From: Pseudomonadota bacterium
Lineage (GTDB): Bacteria > Pseudomonadota > Gammaproteobacteria > Steroidobacterales > Steroidobacteraceae
Direction of reading: 5' to 3'
Assembly: GCA_021780395.1 (NCBI GenBank)
Contig: JAJXYU010000041.1
Coordinates: 1 to 37,910 of the forward strand
DNA: 37,910 nucleotides
Of this stretch, positions 2,573 to 9,113 are shown piece by piece. Numbering within the stretch: the first letter of the stretch is position 1; each line of letters starts with the position of its first letter. The translations under genes were made by a program, and so were the position numbers. The notes under the pieces were generated by a model, which worked only from the letters and a program-made list of their open reading frames with translations, made no database searches and had not been told where the DNA came from.

Positions 2573-3688
2573 TCAGAATCCGAGCCGCACGAACAGCACC
2601 GCGAACACGGCGTCGGCGAGGATCACGAGGAAGATCGATTGCACCACCGCGATCGTCGTCTGCCGGCCGAGCTCGCGCGGCGACTCGCGGACGCGCATCC
2701 CGCGATAGGTCCCGACGACCGCGATCAGCACGGCGAACACCGGCGCCTTGATCAGCCCCGCCCAGAACGTGGTCGGCGCGATCGCCGCCCGCAACCGGTC
2801 CGCGAACTGCGGCCAGGAGATGTGCGCCTGGTAGTGCGCGAGCAGCCCGCCGCCGAGCAGGCCGGTCGCATCGGCGATCACCGTGAGCGCCGGCAAACTG
2901 ATCACCAGCGCGAGGATCCGGGGAACGACCAGCAGCTCGATCGGGTCCATGTCCATCGCGCGCAGCGCGTCGATCTCTTCGTTGAGCCGCATCGCGCCGA
3001 TCTCGGCCGCGAAGGCGCTGCCCGAGCGGCCGGCGACGACGATCGAGGTCAGCAGCACCCCCATCTCGCGGAGCACCGCGATCGCGATCAGGTCGACCAC
3101 GAAGATCTCCGCGCCGAACAGCCGCAACTGCTGCGATCCGAGGTAGGCGACGATCACGCTGATCAGGAACGCGATCAGGCAGACGATCGGGATCGCGGTG
3201 ACACCGGTCTCGTAGACATGCCGCGTCAGCGACGGCAGACGCCAGGATCGCGGCTGCCGGACCGCGCGCGCGAGCACCGTGACGATGCGACCGACGAGGG
3301 CCGCGAACTCGCGCATCTCGGCGCCCCGCGAGAGCACCCAGCGGCCGAGTGCGCCGAGCGCGCCGGGCGAACGCGCATCGTCCGAGGGACTGTCCACCGG
3401 GGTCCGCCGACGCAATGCGTCGAGAAAGGCAACGTGACGTGGCGGCGCGACGTGCTGGATCCGCAGTCGTCCGCCACCGATCGCATCGATCCGCGCGAGC
3501 AGCGCCCAGGCCGGGCCGATCCCCGGCGACTCGGCGGCTGACCAGTCGCAGGTCAGCGTGCCGGCGATCGACTGCGGCAAGTCGCCGAGCAGGGCCTGCG
3601 CCTCGGCGAGCGCCCGGGCCGACCAATCGCCCGCGATCCGCAAACGCCATTCGTCGCCGCCGCCTTCGAGCGCCAACGAACTCGGCAT
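2573..3688 (-). CDS. MlaE-family permease with fused N-terminal STAS-like domain
   Basis: The protein has 371 residues, about 110 more than a bare MlaE. Residues 1-95 look like a STAS domain (alternating strands and helices, no membrane segment), replacing a separate MlaB. From about 125 on it is an MlaE permease with five or six hydrophobic segments and the family's conserved parts: ETGVTAIPIV, the EMGVLLTSIVVAGRSGSAFAAE region, and EEIDALRAMDMDP. It forms the inner-membrane channel of the lipid transporter. Its start lies seven bases after the stop of the CDGSH gene, so that gene probably shares the transcript. Confidence 0.92.
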   Translation of the reverse strand: MPSSLALEGGGDEWRLRIAGDWSARALAEAQALLGDLPQSIAGTLTCDWSAAESPGIGPAWALLARIDAIGGGRLRIQHVAPPRHVAFLDALRRRTPVDSPSDDARSPGALGALGRWVLSRGAEMREFAALVGRIVTVLARAVRQPRSWRLPSLTRHVYETGVTAIPIVCLIAFLISVIVAYLGSQQLRLFGAEIFVVDLIAIAVLREMGVLLTSIVVAGRSGSAFAAEIGAMRLNEEIDALRAMDMDPIELLVVPRILALVISLPALTVIADATGLLGGGLLAHYQAHISWPQFADRLRAAIAPTTFWAGLIKAPVFAVLIAVVGTYRGMRVRESPRELGRQTTIAVVQSIFLVILADAVFAVLFVRLGF

Positions 3689-3695
3689 CGTCGGT

Positions 3696-3929
3696 TCAGC
3701 CGGTCGACGGCGCCGCGATCTTCTTGTGCGAACCGTCGCAGAACGGCGGAGTCGCCGTGCGCTTGCACGCGCAGAACCACACGCGCGCGTCCGCGCTCGC
3801 CTGGTGCTTCATCGGCGTGAACTCGGTGCCCTTGTGCGAACCGTCGCAAAACGGCTGCCGCGCACTCTTGCCGCAACGGCACCACCAGTACGTCTCTCCG
3901 GCCTTGACGTCTACCGCTATCGGTTCCAT
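3696..3929 (-). CDS. CDGSH iron-sulfur domain protein with two motifs
   Basis: This 77-residue protein carries two copies of the 2Fe-2S binding motif CxC-x2-S/T-x3-P-x-CDGSH: CRCGKSARQPFCDGSH at about 17-32 and CACKRTATPPFCDGSH at about 52-67. Each copy has the three Cys and one His that hold a mitoNEET-type cluster. Such small soluble proteins are thought to handle electrons or iron-sulfur clusters, but their bacterial roles are poorly known. I choose the ATG at 3929 (MEPIAVDV) over the GTG two codons upstream because a promoter-like pair ends six bases before it. It heads the minus-strand lipid-transport operon, an odd partnership with no clear explanation. Confidence 0.9.
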   Translation of the reverse strand: MEPIAVDVKAGETYWWCRCGKSARQPFCDGSHKGTEFTPMKHQASADARVWFCACKRTATPPFCDGSHKKIAAPSTG

Positions 3930-3964
3930 CCGCACACTTTATCAGGCGCGGCGACCGGTGTCGC
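3930..3964 (-). promoter_or_regulatory. Candidate leaderless promoter of the CDGSH/Mla operon
   Basis: On the minus strand GCGACA (3964-3959) is separated by 17 bases from TAAAGT (3941-3936), which ends six bases before the ATG at 3929. Transcription would begin at or next to the start codon. No Shine-Dalgarno sequence is visible. The match to sigma-70 hexamers is four of six in each box, so this is a reasoned candidate. Confidence 0.45.
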
Positions 3965-4008
3965 CGCCATTGCCCCGGGCGCACCGGGGCATTAACGTCG
4001 ATCACGCG

Positions 4009-5991
4009 ATGCACGCGGATCCTCTGTTGCAGATCCTGATCCTGCTGACGGCCTCGGTCGGCGTGGTCGCGCTCGTGCGTCGGCTCGCACTGCCTGCGAT
4101 TCTCGGCTATCTCCTGGTCGGGGCGATGCTCGGCCCCCACGCGCTCGGTCTGGTCGACGACACCGCGACCACTCGACTCCTCGCCGAGTTCGGGATCACG
4201 TTCCTGTTGTTCACGCTCGGGCTGGAATTCTCCAGGCCGCGCCTGGTCGCGATGCGCACCGAGGTCTTCGGCGTCGGCGGATTGCAGGTGCTGCTCACCG
4301 CGGGTGCCGTCGCCGGCATCGCGATCGCCGGGTTCGGGATCGCGCCGGCGACCGCGGTCGTCACCGGCGGCGCGATCGCGATGTCGTCGACCGCGATCAT
4401 CGTCGCACAGCTCACCGAGCAGTCCGAGAACAACCGGTCGCACGGACGACTCGCGGTCGCGATCTGTCTCTTCCAGGATCTCGCGTTCACGGTGCTGCTC
4501 GCGCTCGAGTCGTCGTTGCGCGACGGTGGTCACCCGGGCGGCGCGCGGGGAATCGTCCTGTCGATTGCGTTCGCGGCGCTCGCTCTCGCGCTGGTGCTCG
4601 CGGCGGGACGCTGGCTGCTGCGCCCGCTGTTCCACGCGATCGCGTCGGTGCACTCGACGGAGCTGTTCGCATTGACCGCGCTGCTGGTGGTGCTCGCGGC
4701 CGCGTGGGCGACCCGCGCGGCGGGCCTGTCGCTCGCCCTCGGCGGCTTTCTCGCCGGGATGATGCTCGCCGAGACCGAGTTCCGCCACCAGGTCGAGGCA
4801 TCGATCGGATCGTATCGCGACGTGCTGGTCGGACTGTTCTTCATCAGCGTCGGCATGCTGCTCGACGGCCGCCTGCTGCTGCGCGACTTCACGCTGGTCG
4901 CAGCATTGCTCGCCGGGATCCTGGTGCTGAAGACCGGCGTGATCGCGCTGGTCGCGAGACGCGCCGCGCGGAGCTGGTTCAAGGCACTGCGCACGGGCGT
5001 CGTCGCCAGTCAGGGCGGGGAATTCGGATTCGCGCTGCTCACGCTCCTGCTCCAGCACCGGCTCCTGGCGCCCGCGGTCGCGCAGCCGTTGCTCGCCGCG
5101 ACGGTGTCGAGCATGCTGCTGGCGCCGCTGCTGATTCGCCACAATCGGCGAATCGCCGCCGCGTTGCTCGGCCGGACCGGCCCGCCGGGGACGGACGTCG
5201 GGCCGGAGACGCGCGCGACGCTCGCCGTTGCCGGGCGCGAGCACGTGATGATCTGCGGCTTCGGGCGGGTCGGGCAGAACGTCGCGCGCGTGCTCGAGCG
5301 CCGCGGGTTCGAGTACCTCGCGCTCGAAGTCGATCCACGGCGGATACGCTCGGCACGGCAGGCGGGCGACCCCGTCGTCTTCGGAGACGCCGCGCAGATC
5401 GAGGTCCTGCGCAGCGTCGGCGCGATGCGGGCGAACTGCGTCGTGATCACCTTCGCGAATCCGCCGGTCGCGTTGCGCGTGGTGCGCGCGATTCGGTCGT
5501 TGCGCCCCGACGTGCCGATTCTCGTGCGCACGCCCGACGACGTGCACCTCGAGGAACTGCAGGCCGCTGGCGCGACCGAGGTCGTGCCGGAGACCTTCGA
5601 AGCGAGCTTGATGCTCGCATCGCACCTGTTGCTGTTGCTGAAGGAGCCGGTCTCGCGGGTGGTCCGGACGATCGACGGCATCCGCACCGACCGCTATGCG
5701 CTGCTGCGCGAAGTCCTGGCCGATGAACGCTCGCCGATCGGGGCGGATGGCGCGCGGGCTCGGGAGCGTTTGCACAGCGTCGTGCTCCCGCCGCATGCCT
5801 GGGCCGTCGGCCGAACCCTCGACGCGCTCGCGGCACACGGCGCGGCGGCGAGCGTCCGGGCGATCCGTCGTGACCGCATCGTCGGTCGCGACCCCGGGGG
5901 CGAAACGGTACTGAGATCGGGCGACGTCGTGATGCTGCACGGGACGCCCGAGGCGATCGAGCGGACCGAAAGCCTGATGCTGGCCGGCTGA
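4009..5991 (+). CDS. CPA2 monovalent cation:proton antiporter with RCK domains (Kef/YbaL-like)
   Basis: The 660-residue protein begins with a 12- or 13-helix Na/H-exchanger domain (about 5-385), with the family segment LALPAILGYLLVGAMLGPHALGLV near the start. From about 408 comes an RCK (TrkA-N) domain with the nucleotide-binding motif CGFGRVGQNVA and the acidic residue at the end of the second strand (ALEVD). A TrkA-C-like domain fills about 580-655. Such proteins move potassium or sodium against protons at the inner membrane, gated by NAD(H) or another ligand. I start at the ATG at 4009 because it gives the usual short N-terminus; the open frame extends far upstream without family similarity. 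It diverges from the CDGSH operon. Confidence 0.9.
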   Translation: MHADPLLQILILLTASVGVVALVRRLALPAILGYLLVGAMLGPHALGLVDDTATTRLLAEFGITFLLFTLGLEFSRPRLVAMRTEVFGVGGLQVLLTAGAVAGIAIAGFGIAPATAVVTGGAIAMSSTAIIVAQLTEQSENNRSHGRLAVAICLFQDLAFTVLLALESSLRDGGHPGGARGIVLSIAFAALALALVLAAGRWLLRPLFHAIASVHSTELFALTALLVVLAAAWATRAAGLSLALGGFLAGMMLAETEFRHQVEASIGSYRDVLVGLFFISVGMLLDGRLLLRDFTLVAALLAGILVLKTGVIALVARRAARSWFKALRTGVVASQGGEFGFALLTLLLQHRLLAPAVAQPLLAATVSSMLLAPLLIRHNRRIAAALLGRTGPPGTDVGPETRATLAVAGREHVMICGFGRVGQNVARVLERRGFEYLALEVDPRRIRSARQAGDPVVFGDAAQIEVLRSVGAMRANCVVITFANPPVALRVVRAIRSLRPDVPILVRTPDDVHLEELQAAGATEVVPETFEASLMLASHLLLLLKEPVSRVVRTIDGIRTDRYALLREVLADERSPIGADGARARERLHSVVLPPHAWAVGRTLDALAAHGAAASVRAIRRDRIVGRDPGGETVLRSGDVVMLHGTPEAIERTESLMLAG

Positions 5992-6038
5992 GCGGCGAAT
6001 TCTGCGACGCAGTCGATGGTATCGCATTGATCGGCTTG

Positions 6039-6053
6039 CGCGCCTGCGGCGCG
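6039..6053 (+). terminator. Possible terminator after the antiporter gene
   Basis: CGCGCC, loop TGC and GGCGCG form a six-bp stem, followed by GCTCTTTA, a short T-rich tail. It lies 48 bases after the antiporter stop. The stem is short and the tail weak, so it is only a candidate. Confidence 0.3.
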
Positions 6054-6089
6054 GCTCTTTACAGGAGAACGGCGCCATCGCATAGTGAA

Positions 6090-6180
6090 TCCGCTGTTCA
6101 AGGGCAAACCCGTCGAAAGGCGGGGACGCAAAGCCACCGGTCTACCGGGCGCCGATCGGGCGCCCCACGACAGCGGAGCC
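6090..6180 (+). promoter_or_regulatory. Class I cyclic-di-GMP riboswitch aptamer (GEMM-I)
   Basis: The conserved GEMM-I core is present almost base for base. It has GGCAAACC (6103-6110), a hairpin CCCGTC-GAAA-GGCGGG with the required GNRA loop, GACGCAAAGCC (6125-6135), then CCGGTCTA, which forms the tetraloop receptor. A second arm closes with GGGCGCC/GGCGCCC, and AGCGGAGCCGCC returns at the 3' side. By comparison with the Vibrio Vc2 aptamer, the ligand-contacting base G20 corresponds to G at 6103; a G there favours c-di-GMP over cGAMP. The stacked A47 corresponds to 6130. The outer P1 helix is not obvious. Instead TCCGCTG (6090-6096) can pair perfectly with CAGCGGA (6171-6177), possibly a competing helix. 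It precedes the FAD oxidase gene and should control it. Confidence 0.88.
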
Positions 6181-6248
6181 GCCAGTGCCTTCGATCGACG
6201 CGCCCACGCGCTCCGGCGGCTGGACTCGCGCGCCCGGAACAGCCGGAT

Positions 6249-6265
6249 GCCGCTCCGAGAGCGGC
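6249..6265 (+). promoter_or_regulatory. Hairpin between riboswitch aptamer and FAD oxidase start (possible expression platform)
   Basis: GCCGCTC, loop CGA and GAGCGGC form a perfect seven-bp stem. It ends nine bases before the likely ribosome-binding site GAGGG (6275-6279) of the gene starting at 6289. There is no T-run, so it does not look like a terminator. It could take part in translational control by the riboswitch upstream; this is inference from position. Confidence 0.4.
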
Positions 6266-6288
6266 CCGACTGCCGAGGGATGATCGAC

Positions 6289-7647
6289 ATGGCACTGAAT
6301 GGCACGCGCACCCCGGGCGCGGATCGGATCGGGCTGCACCGCCGGCCGCGCGTCACCGTTCGACCCCGGACCGTCGAGGAGGTCGCCGCGATCCTCGCGA
6401 ACCCGAAGGCGTATCCCTCGCCGGTACGCCCGATCGGGGCCGACTACTCGATCACTCGCTGCGCGAACACCGATGGCGGCACGGCGCTGCATCTGGATGC
6501 GTTCGACAGGATCCTCGGCTACGACGAAGGCTGCGTCCGCGTGCAGGCCGGCGTGCGGGTCGCGGCCCTGGTCCGGGCGCTCGCCGAGCGCGGGCTGGAG
6601 CTGCCGCTGACCCCGGACATCGGCAACATGTCGGTCGGCGCGCTGGCGGTCGCGACGCTGCCGCAGCCGTCCTATCGCGAGGACTGCGCGCAGATGGCCT
6701 CCTGCGTGACCGAGATCCGGTTGGTCACGCCCCAAGGTCGACAGATCACGGTCACCGAGCGCGACCGGGACCTCATGCGCGTCTTGCGATCGAGTCATGG
6801 CCTGCTCGGCGTCGTTCACGAGGTCTCGCTGCGCGTCGAACCGGTGGCGCCGGTGAAGATCGAATATCGCAGTCACTCCTTCGCGGAGTTCGCGGCGCGT
6901 TACGCGCGCATCGTCGAAGAGCCCGGCGCACTGCGATTTCATGTCGCGCCGTTTTCCGACCGGATCACCGTCGAACGGCGCGTCCGCGATCCGGACGAGA
7001 GCATCACCCGCTCCGGGATCTGGCAGATCCGTCAGTCCGTGATGCGCAACGTGCTGCCGGCGTTCGGCTCGTCGGTCGGCAGCGTGCTCGCGACACCGGG
7101 ACTGCGCAACGCGGTACTCACGGGCGTGCACCGCGCGCTGCATGCCGCGCAGGGCCGCGCCTCGCGCGGCGTCGTGCTGCACTCGCACGAATGGATGCGC
7201 GAGCTCCCCGCGGACCCCTCGAAGGCCCGCCACACGTACAGCCTCTGGGCATTTGCGCAGGCGGACTTCCCGAAACTCCTCGAGGAATACGCCGCGTTCT
7301 GCCGCGACCATCAAAAGCGTTATCGGTACCGATGCAACCTCGTGACCGTCGCGAGTCGTCTGCACCGTGACCGGAACGCGTTGTTCAGTCCGAGCCATGC
7401 GGGCGACCGGGTCACGCTGGAACCGTCGTCGCCGGGCGATCCCGGATTCGAGGATTTCCTGATCGACTTCAACGAGTTCGCGTCGAACGCCGGCGGCGCG
7501 CCGACGCTCACCCAGACGCGCGCACTCACGGTCGAGCAGCTCACGAAGGCGCTCGGCGAGCGAGCGCGACTGTTCGCCGCGCTGCGCCGCCGGACGGATC
7601 CGGCGAACCGCCTGCGAAACAGCTATTTCGCGCAGCTGCTCAGCTGA
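6289..7647 (+). CDS. FAD-binding oxidoreductase, aldonolactone-oxidase-like
   Basis: The protein has 452 residues. Residues about 12-195 form an FAD-binding (PCMH-type) domain, with PRVTVRPRTVEEVAAIL at the front and GLLGVVHEVSLRV at its end. The C-terminal half matches the sugar-lactone oxidase (ALO) fold and ends in DPANRLRNSYFAQLL, close to the family's DPxNxFxNxY tail. The usual SxxHG-type FAD loop is altered (NMSVGALAVATLPQPSYRED), so substrate and flavin attachment may differ. I choose the ATG at 6289, nine bases after GAGGG; ATG 6280 is nearly on top of that site. The open frame reaches back to 6085, but that part is the riboswitch. Regulation by c-di-GMP is expected. Confidence 0.82.
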   Translation: MALNGTRTPGADRIGLHRRPRVTVRPRTVEEVAAILANPKAYPSPVRPIGADYSITRCANTDGGTALHLDAFDRILGYDEGCVRVQAGVRVAALVRALAERGLELPLTPDIGNMSVGALAVATLPQPSYREDCAQMASCVTEIRLVTPQGRQITVTERDRDLMRVLRSSHGLLGVVHEVSLRVEPVAPVKIEYRSHSFAEFAARYARIVEEPGALRFHVAPFSDRITVERRVRDPDESITRSGIWQIRQSVMRNVLPAFGSSVGSVLATPGLRNAVLTGVHRALHAAQGRASRGVVLHSHEWMRELPADPSKARHTYSLWAFAQADFPKLLEEYAAFCRDHQKRYRYRCNLVTVASRLHRDRNALFSPSHAGDRVTLEPSSPGDPGFEDFLIDFNEFASNAGGAPTLTQTRALTVEQLTKALGERARLFAALRRRTDPANRLRNSYFAQLLS

Positions 7648-7663
7648 CGCCCGGCCGACCTCC

Positions 7664-8146
7664 TCAGGTCTTGTCCTGCGAGTGCGCCTCGAGGAACCAG
7701 AGGTGCTTGTCGAGGTCTCGCGAGATGCCCGTGAACAGATCCGCGGTGTCCGCATCGCCGAGCTCGTCGGTCGCGTCGATCGCGGCGCGTACCGACTTGC
7801 CGAACGCGGCCAGCTGGGTCGACAAGTAGTACAGATGGTCCTTGCCGGACGTGATGCTGAGCGGGTAGTTCTTGAGCCGGCTGCGCTTCGCAGCGACCGC
7901 GACGGTGCCCTCGGCCGTACCGCCGAGCGCGGTGACCCGCTCGGCGATCTCGTCGATTTGACCGAGCACCATGTCCGAGATCTTGTCGAACAGTTCGTGC
8001 AGCGCGATGAAGTTAGGACCCTTCACGTTCCAGTGCGCCTGCTTGACCTGGCTCTGCAGGTCGATCGCATCGGCGAGTCTGTCGTTCAGGATCGCGATCA
8101 CGTTGCGGCGGGTCTTTTCGGGTAGATCGATCTTCGTCTTGTACAT
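7664..8146 (-). CDS. dps: Dps family DNA-binding / ferritin-like protein
   Basis: The 160-residue protein has the four-helix Dps fold. The ferroxidase ligands are visible: His in QAHWNVKG, His and Asp in ALHELFD, and Asp/Glu in QIDEIAERV. The tail KHLWFLEAHSQ is also typical. Dps oxidises ferrous iron with hydrogen peroxide, stores it in a dodecamer and often coats DNA under stress. The start is the ATG at 8146 (MYKTKIDLPEK), preceded by GAGGAC. In the upstream stretch TTGGTG, 18 bases and CACAAT make a possible promoter on the minus strand, and GTGCATTGTGCAC (8181-8193) is a short palindrome that overlaps it. It converges with the oxidase gene. Confidence 0.93.
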   Translation of the reverse strand: MYKTKIDLPEKTRRNVIAILNDRLADAIDLQSQVKQAHWNVKGPNFIALHELFDKISDMVLGQIDEIAERVTALGGTAEGTVAVAAKRSRLKNYPLSITSGKDHLYYLSTQLAAFGKSVRAAIDATDELGDADTADLFTGISRDLDKHLWFLEAHSQDKT

Positions 8147-8202
8147 GCCGACGTCCTCGACGCGTTGAAGAGAGGGCCTCGTGCATTGTGCACGATCGCG
8201 CC

Positions 8203-8221
8203 CGCGCGCACCAAGCGCGCG
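8203..8221 (-). terminator. Possible terminator after the GntR/ABC operon
   Basis: CGCGCGC, loop ACCAA and GCGCGCG make a seven-bp GC-only stem, starting 10 bases after the permease stop on the minus strand. No T-run follows, as in many GC-rich genomes. In sequence this rich in GC such stems arise easily, so confidence is low. Confidence 0.3.
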
Positions 8222-8231
8222 GATCGCGCGC

Positions 8232-9113
8232 TCACGGATCGACGTTGCGCGCGCGCAGGCGGATCGCCGCACCGACCAGCACGACGCCGGCGCCGACCCC
8301 GATCCAGGTCGCGGGGGCTGCGAGGAAGCGAGCCGGCGCGAGCAGTTCCCAGACGCTCGCCGGCACGGCCGTCCGCGACGCGCCGGGGAAGCCGAGTGCG
8401 CCGAGGAGCGATCCCGAGAGGTCGTGAAACGCGGTTGCCGGATAGCCGTCGACCAGACGATTCACGAGGATCCGCCCGACCCAGTTCGTTCCGAGGAACA
8501 CCCGCTCGGCCCAGACCGCGGCGACCGGAGGCAGGAGCGACCAGAGCACGGTCGCGCGGCGCACCGAGGCGGAGACGAGCAGCAGCCAGCCCGCGACCGG
8601 CAGGAGCCAGATCGCGAGGGTCAGGATCAGGTAACACCACAGGGCCTGCAACTGCAGCCATTGCTCGGGATGCCACAACGCGGTTCCGATCCACGCGCGC
8701 GCGCGCAACGACACGATGAACGCGATCGCAAGCGTGGTCACGTCCGCGGCCGCGAAATAGACGAGCGGGATCGCGATCAGGCCGGTCGCGAGCTTCGCGA
8801 GCACCGTCTGCGCGTCGCCGATCGGAAGGGACTTCCAGAACAGGATGCTGCGGTCGCGGCGGTCGGCGTTCAGGCAATCGAGGAGGTACCAGGACGAATA
8901 GGCCAGCATCGCGAACAGGAACACGATCCCGAAGCCGAACAGCAGGGCGCCGCCGAGCGCGCTCGGGCCGGGCCGGACGCCCGCGATGTCCACGTCGACG
9001 TGGCCGAACGAGGCCGCGAGCACGAGCAGCACGCCGGTCACCGCCGGCAGGATCCACGCCGCGCGGTATTCCCAGAGTTCGCGGCGAATCAGCCACAGGA
9101 AACGGGTCATCAC
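8232..9113 (-). CDS. ABC-2 type transporter permease
   Basis: The protein has 293 residues and about six or seven hydrophobic segments (near 20-36, 55-78, 105-140, 160-185, 190-205 and 255-280). The first cytoplasmic part WLIRRELWEYR and the segment NADRRDRSILFWKSLPIGDAQTV are characteristic of permeases paired with YtrA/GntR-type regulators. It forms the membrane part of an exporter with the ATPase encoded just upstream. The two genes share an ATGA overlap. The substrate is unknown; related systems are often linked to antibiotic or cell-wall stress or to membrane protein homeostasis. Confidence 0.85.
   Translation of the reverse strand: MMTRFLWLIRRELWEYRAAWILPAVTGVLLVLAASFGHVDVDIAGVRPGPSALGGALLFGFGIVFLFAMLAYSSWYLLDCLNADRRDRSILFWKSLPIGDAQTVLAKLATGLIAIPLVYFAAADVTTLAIAFIVSLRARAWIGTALWHPEQWLQLQALWCYLILTLAIWLLPVAGWLLLVSASVRRATVLWSLLPPVAAVWAERVFLGTNWVGRILVNRLVDGYPATAFHDLSGSLLGALGFPGASRTAVPASVWELLAPARFLAAPATWIGVGAGVVLVGAAIRLRARNVDP

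Follow-up and report, generated by a model that had tools for sequence, protein, structure and literature searches.

According to the portion of a review that treats their targets, riboswitches of the c-di-GMP class I (GEMM-I) control genes for motility, chemotaxis, adherence, and pili (PMC6366702). The cGAMP riboswitch of Geobacter (GEMM-Ib) belongs to the same family of folds and has an adenine at position 20, and an A-to-G change at this nucleotide converts a cGAMP riboswitch into a c-di-GMP riboswitch, as stated in an excerpt of the relevant report (PMC6456294). We analysed a stretch of 37,910 nucleotides from a Steroidobacteraceae bacterium, hereafter the window, in which a class I aptamer stands in front of an oxidase gene. 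In contrast to the targets named in that review, the target here is a flavoenzyme. We consider it likely, judging from sequence comparison and folding energies, that this riboswitch controls translation of the oxidase from the leader of an apparent single-gene transcript, with c-di-GMP as the repressing ligand in relatives and, by analogy, in the window. In the openly licensed literature, we found no report linking a c-di-GMP riboswitch to an FAD oxidoreductase or a lactone oxidase, nor one of a c-di-GMP riboswitch in Steroidobacter or of any riboswitch in Woeseia; the accessible part of PMC7288161 is unrelated to this pairing. The RNA itself is a member of a known family, and what seems to be new is its target and the depth at which the pairing is conserved.

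The usual kind of target was surveyed at 31 other class I loci of the same family (f1, Steroidobacteraceae by homologue names), comprising 30 loci and the pilM locus of the window's own genome, where the likely target was taken to be the longest ORF with its start no more than 600 nt away. One family of long proteins accounts for 19 of these targets (loci within L005-L034), mostly without a Pfam match and with a SPOR domain in two of the eight members scanned; the others are Ig-like surface proteins (6), M23 peptidases (4), and PilM (2). These targets fit the picture of motility, chemotaxis, and adherence drawn in the consulted portion of the review (PMC6366702). None of the 31 loci has an oxidase-like target. 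Because 30 of them come from genera in which the oxidase was not found, the survey illustrates the usual kind of target rather than the rarity of the oxidase. The only other RF01051 match in the window's own genome (L003, 1501-1588, 71.2 bits) lies about 285 nt upstream of pilM, a gene of type IV pilus assembly.

The aptamer occupies positions 6092-6187 of the forward strand, as delimited by Rfam matches and core columns, and is closed by a P1 helix of CGCUG (6092-6096) with CAGUG (6183-6187). In an Rfam scan of the whole window, the sole match above its cut-off was RF03167 (c-di-GMP-I-GGC) at 6094-6187 on the forward strand, which passed narrowly with 62.0 bits against 59 (E 1.8e-12). RF01051, the covariance model by which a preliminary description of this DNA had proposed to check the aptamer, scores 67.5 bits against a cut-off of 35 at the same site in a search of the window's own genome, and in the leaders of other oxidase genes its score is often better than that of RF03167. 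With both models above their cut-offs and the core letters in place, namely GGGCAAACC at 6102-6110, the GAAA tetraloop arm, and GACGCAAAG at 6125-6133, the nearly canonical GEMM-I core reported earlier is borne out. The locus thus resembles RF01051 and RF03167 in score, core nucleotides, a guanine at position 20, and location in a 5' leader, whereas its P3 arm is longer than in the RF03167 consensus.

The equivalent of position 20, in the numbering of the Vibrio cholerae Vc2 aptamer, is G6103; from the base at this position the preliminary description had predicted c-di-GMP as the ligand. This column is G in all 83 aligned aptamers from oxidase leaders, and the A of GEMM-Ib occurs in none of the 83. 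Because of this guanine, the predicted ligand is c-di-GMP rather than cGAMP. A specificity for cGAMP or some other nucleotide is very improbable: RF03167 is a named class I variant, and the parts of the literature on it that we consulted gave us no statement of its ligand, which leaves some room for such a reading, but the invariant G and the conversion of a cGAMP riboswitch by A-to-G at this very position (excerpt of PMC6456294) speak for c-di-GMP. The window's own genome encodes 17 GGDEF domains. In the alignment of the 83 aptamers, 94.8% of the pair cells pair, and the pair two columns past position 20 never mismatches, being C-G in 66 aptamers and U-A in 17. Both-sided changes occur in 13 of the 22 aptamer pairs, and the covariation score is 0.337 against 0.193 for shuffled alignments, with none of 500 shuffles reaching it; both values are to be read with the alignment having been fitted to a model of the same structure.

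The aptamer is also covered by a long open reading frame of 520 amino acids beginning at GTG 6085, as had been noted earlier. A motif search between 5900 and 6400 found a single sigma-70-type promoter (0.1 expected in shuffles) on the forward strand at 6058-6086, composed of TTTACA (6058-6063), a spacer of 17 nt, and CATAGT (6081-6086). Both hexamers, with at least five of six letters each, are present at 20 of the 23 Steroidobacteraceae oxidase loci and absent from L067, L074, and L078, the last of which lies at a contig edge. Transcription should begin at about 6092-6094, at the first base pair of P1. Since GTG 6085 sits within the -10 hexamer, there is very little chance that the protein starts there. 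Its most likely start is ATG 6289, nine nucleotides downstream of a Shine-Dalgarno sequence GAGGG (6275-6279, forward strand) assigned from the sequence and the aligned starts. An alignment of N-termini, suggested as a check in the preliminary description, gave 25 sequences (the window included) sharing the start methionine that matches 6289. That an N-terminal extension is encoded by 6085-6288, with the RNA match being incidental, is scarcely credible. The frame is indeed open from GTG 6085 in the window and likewise in its relative L065, but other relatives have in-frame stops upstream of the start (L069 at -204 nt, L080 at -15 nt), and the covariation of the aptamer and the common start methionine argue in the same direction. 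On the position of the GTG in the -10 hexamer and the stops in relatives, a protein-coding 6085-6288 was rejected. The long frame predicted earlier is thus real, but the expected mis-start by about 68 residues is not seen in the listed homologues, because these mostly carry the 6289-type start: among 120 matches listed of 909 homologues, 85 have 452 amino acids and 117 have 445-457.

How widely the riboswitch and the oxidase occur together was assessed at oxidase loci that had been picked by protein profile alone, blind to the aptamer, in 93 distinct genomes. Of these loci, 23 came from 217 f1 genomes (E<=1e-60), 13 and a further 54 from a search of the order, and 3 from a search of the class. 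The order search matched 111 genomes, 25 of which had partial near-threshold matches and were left out of the aptamer count, and the class search matched 4 of 369. With a covariance model built from 28 class I aptamers, to which oxidase leaders contributed 13, an aptamer was found just upstream of the oxidase gene and in its orientation at 83 of the 93 loci. By family code, these are 20/23 in f1, 1/1 in f3, 5/5 in f6, 46/46 in f7 (Woeseiaceae by homologue names), and 11/11 in f15, against 0/1 in f4, 0/5 in f10, and 0/1 in another order. Rfam models exceeded their cut-offs in 47 of the 56 loci put to them (20/23 f1 loci, 7/13 loci from the order, and 20/20 loci chosen from positives of our own model); the remaining aptamers were called by our own covariance model alone, with at least 47.8 bits.

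One of the three misses in f1, L078, lies at a contig edge. The other two, the close relatives L067 and L074, have lost both aptamer and promoter and look decayed, with no match to a c-di-GMP riboswitch family even at E<=5; L074 retains the 3' part of the aptamer and the switching strand described below, which together with L067 makes a natural loss series. The five f10 genomes (L082-L085, L087) have the oxidase without the aptamer, yet carry 4 to 15 class I aptamers elsewhere. Because RF01051 matches number only 1 to 21 per genome in the 67 of 97 sampled genomes of the order that have any, we estimate that chance would place an aptamer just upstream of the oxidase in about 1 in 1000 genomes or fewer. 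Neighbouring genes vary between families, while aptamer and oxidase remain together. In a midpoint-rooted tree of 38 oxidase sequences, aptamers occur in both major clades, and the aptamer-less oxidases of f4, f10, and the other order group with f1 rather than forming a clade apart (support 0.28-1.0), a topology that fits an ancestral aptamer with losses as well as two gains. Most of the related genomes that we examined show this pairing, so the oxidase is probably a real output of c-di-GMP signalling. With an aptamer at 83 of 93 loci, the arrangement earlier described as unusual is widespread in the order and no local oddity.

Between the aptamer and the start codon, a putative switching strand GCCCGGAACAGC (6232-6243, forward strand) is complementary to the 5' strand of the aptamer, GCUGUUCAAGGGC (6093-6105, forward strand), through 7 bp with 6093-6099 and 4 bp with 6102-6105. 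The duplex of GCCC..GAACAGC with GCUGUUC..GGGC has an energy of -18.5 kcal/mol and competes with the 5-bp P1, and a longer segment reaches -22.4 kcal/mol, with 1% of 200 dinucleotide shuffles doing as well. In the ligand-free state, the 5' strand could leave the aptamer and would be invaded by the switching strand; binding of c-di-GMP to the aptamer would free the switching strand, which in many relatives could then close the Shine-Dalgarno sequence and lower translation. The counterpart in relatives of the genus, CCCCCxGACAGC, complements their Shine-Dalgarno sequence GGGGGG as well. In L068 and L071, both sides of the pairing between switching strand and Shine-Dalgarno sequence depart from the letters of the rest yet remain complementary; L073 has a change on the switching strand only, which gives a longer match. 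By eye, three-way complementarity with other letters can be made out again in other families, as in L086 (CCGCUGAAC/GUUCAGCGG). The sequence GUGUCUUUGGCA of many Woeseiaceae leaders is partly complementary to both the aptamer sequence CAAAGGCACAC and the Shine-Dalgarno sequence UGGAGACA.

Joint pairing of this strand with the aptamer 5' strand and the Shine-Dalgarno sequence beats 95% of dinucleotide shuffles in 32 of 71 leaders, where 3.6 would be expected, and is not significant in the other 39. The two pairing segments overlap in 49 of the 71 leaders against 35.8 expected, modestly above chance. This count leaves out 12 Woeseiaceae loci whose starts were read by eye, the automatic start choice having been wrong for nine and missing for three of them. 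When strands were swapped between species among 20 leaders, a leader's own strand paired better, weakly so, with p 0.036 for the Shine-Dalgarno pairing and p 0.08 for the 5'-strand pairing. Within f1, neither helix covaries: the switching helix is conserved only, with 94.3% paired against 94.1% when shuffled and 40-62% when slid, and the Shine-Dalgarno helix has 71.7% against 71.5% when slid by +1. The case for the switching strand is therefore built on conserved complementarity, the shuffles, and the different letters found in other families.

The seven-bp hairpin close to the ribosome-binding site, from which translational control had been considered plausible, is present as GCCGCUC (6249-6255) and GAGCGGC (6259-6265) around a CGA loop, between the switching strand and the Shine-Dalgarno sequence in the window's sequence and in the minimum free energy (MFE) fold (6249-6265, forward strand), and it is kept in L065, L066, L069, and L080. 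Translational control is supported by the sequence; the hairpin alone is not the probable cause, and the switching strand at 6232-6243 is the likelier element. A different hairpin, formed by CTTCC, a G-run, and GGAAG, holds the Shine-Dalgarno sequence in the last 30 nt before the ATG in 12 of the 23 f1 relatives (L058-L064, L072, L073, L076, L077, L079) and is absent from the window's clade.

In the 12 Woeseiaceae loci read by eye, the Shine-Dalgarno sequence apparently lies inside the aptamer. The only good Shine-Dalgarno sequence, GGAG, overlaps the P1 3' strand at seven of them and lies within P3 at five, and the start codon follows after 6-9 bases. Ligand binding would there follow the same OFF logic in a more direct way. 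Imposing the aptamer raises the cost of opening the start region in 12 of 19 f1 leaders, lowers it in four, and leaves it equal in three. Strand exchange, the Shine-Dalgarno sequences inside the aptamer, and these opening energies together suggest that translation is off in the c-di-GMP-bound state, so that the net effect would be repression of the oxidase, and the mode of control is most likely translational. Control by transcription termination or Rho entry appears improbable. Termination is the mode of the class I switches of Clostridioides difficile, according to the consulted portion of the review (PMC6366702), but a scan of the window between 5900 and 6400 found no intrinsic terminator-like site, and the Shine-Dalgarno sequences apparently inside the aptamer in the 12 relatives also speak against it. 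Terminator-based control was set aside for lack of a site in the window.

For the window's own gene, repression is favoured only by analogy with these relatives, and the folding energies leave its sign open. This is because the duplex between its switching strand and Shine-Dalgarno sequence is weak (-9.6 kcal/mol), the P1 3' strand is complementary to the start region, and the energies lean slightly towards ON. In the unconstrained MFE pairing, CAGUGCC (6183-6189, forward strand), which is the P1 3' strand plus two bases, pairs with GGCACUG (6291-6297). In the window's clade the riboswitch might be an ON switch, in which the start region (6281-6297) is held, without ligand, by this segment and the bases after it, and a ligand-stabilised P1 reclaims CAGUG and frees the start codon; we regard this as the less probable course, though one to be taken seriously. 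Opening the start region costs 13.4 kcal/mol unconstrained, 6.1 with the aptamer, and 6.7 with the switching helix, and CAGUG[CU]C and GGCA[CU]UG are kept in all four clade members (L065, L066, L069, L080), three of which (L065, L066, L080) lean weakly ON, the remaining one leaning neither way. The letters on the ORF side are, however, also codon-driven, the three ON calls differ by only 0.6-2.2 kcal/mol, and the complementarity is not seen in the leaders of other relatives, 12 of which lean OFF.

Taking the repressing riboswitch as the preferred reading, a broader one may be put forward tentatively, with rather more doubt than confidence: one metabolic flavoenzyme might be a near-obligate target of a c-di-GMP riboswitch across one order of Gammaproteobacteria, with at least three translational platforms evolved on one orthologous leader under one OFF logic. 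These platforms would be strand exchange with the Shine-Dalgarno sequence, the Shine-Dalgarno sequence in P1, and the Shine-Dalgarno sequence in P3. If true, c-di-GMP would directly turn off a step of sugar-lactone oxidation, and the riboswitch regulon would extend from surface structures to redox metabolism. The deeply conserved flavoenzyme link in Steroidobacteraceae and Woeseiaceae is a concrete starting point, open to testing, for tracing a metabolic arm of c-di-GMP signalling, and it offers one aptamer with a natural series of expression platforms.

The oxidase gene (6289-7647, forward strand) encodes an FAD-linked oxidoreductase of 452 amino acids with the aldonolactone-oxidase/alditol-oxidase fold. 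Its Pfam domains PF01565 and PF04030 both exceed their cut-offs, and it shares the aldonolactone oxidoreductase fold. It falls far below the cut-offs of the sugar-1,4-lactone oxidase families TIGR01678 (62.4 against 396.8 bits) and TIGR01679 (109.9 against 292.25 bits), and its identity to L-galactono-1,4-lactone dehydrogenase (GLDH) and bacterial alditol oxidase is 17-22%. Tyr53 aligns with the Leu of GLDH, at the place where covalent-FAD enzymes carry a His. A structure model built from 46 sequences (pLDDT 77), used instead of an earlier poor one (pLDDT 62), has a fold like that of DprE1, the decaprenylphosphoryl-ribose oxidase, with Z mostly 30-31 at 14-17% identity; the DprE1 model NF053785 gives 45 bits against a cut-off of 500. 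The enzyme looks like an FAD-linked, sugar-lactone-oxidase-like protein, its substrate class being suggested by likeness only.

Neighbouring genes gave no clue to a pathway, and they differ in other families. A gene for a Na+/H+ exchanger-TrkA protein (3349-5991) lies upstream of the oxidase, as it does directly upstream in 11 of 22 loci of relatives that were searched for it. Downstream, on the opposite strand, is a ferritin-like gene (7664-8272). The window was placed on contig C100 of its own genome, while its positions 4594-7687 match contig C40 at 99.97%; it thus seems to extend over contigs that this genome record keeps apart.
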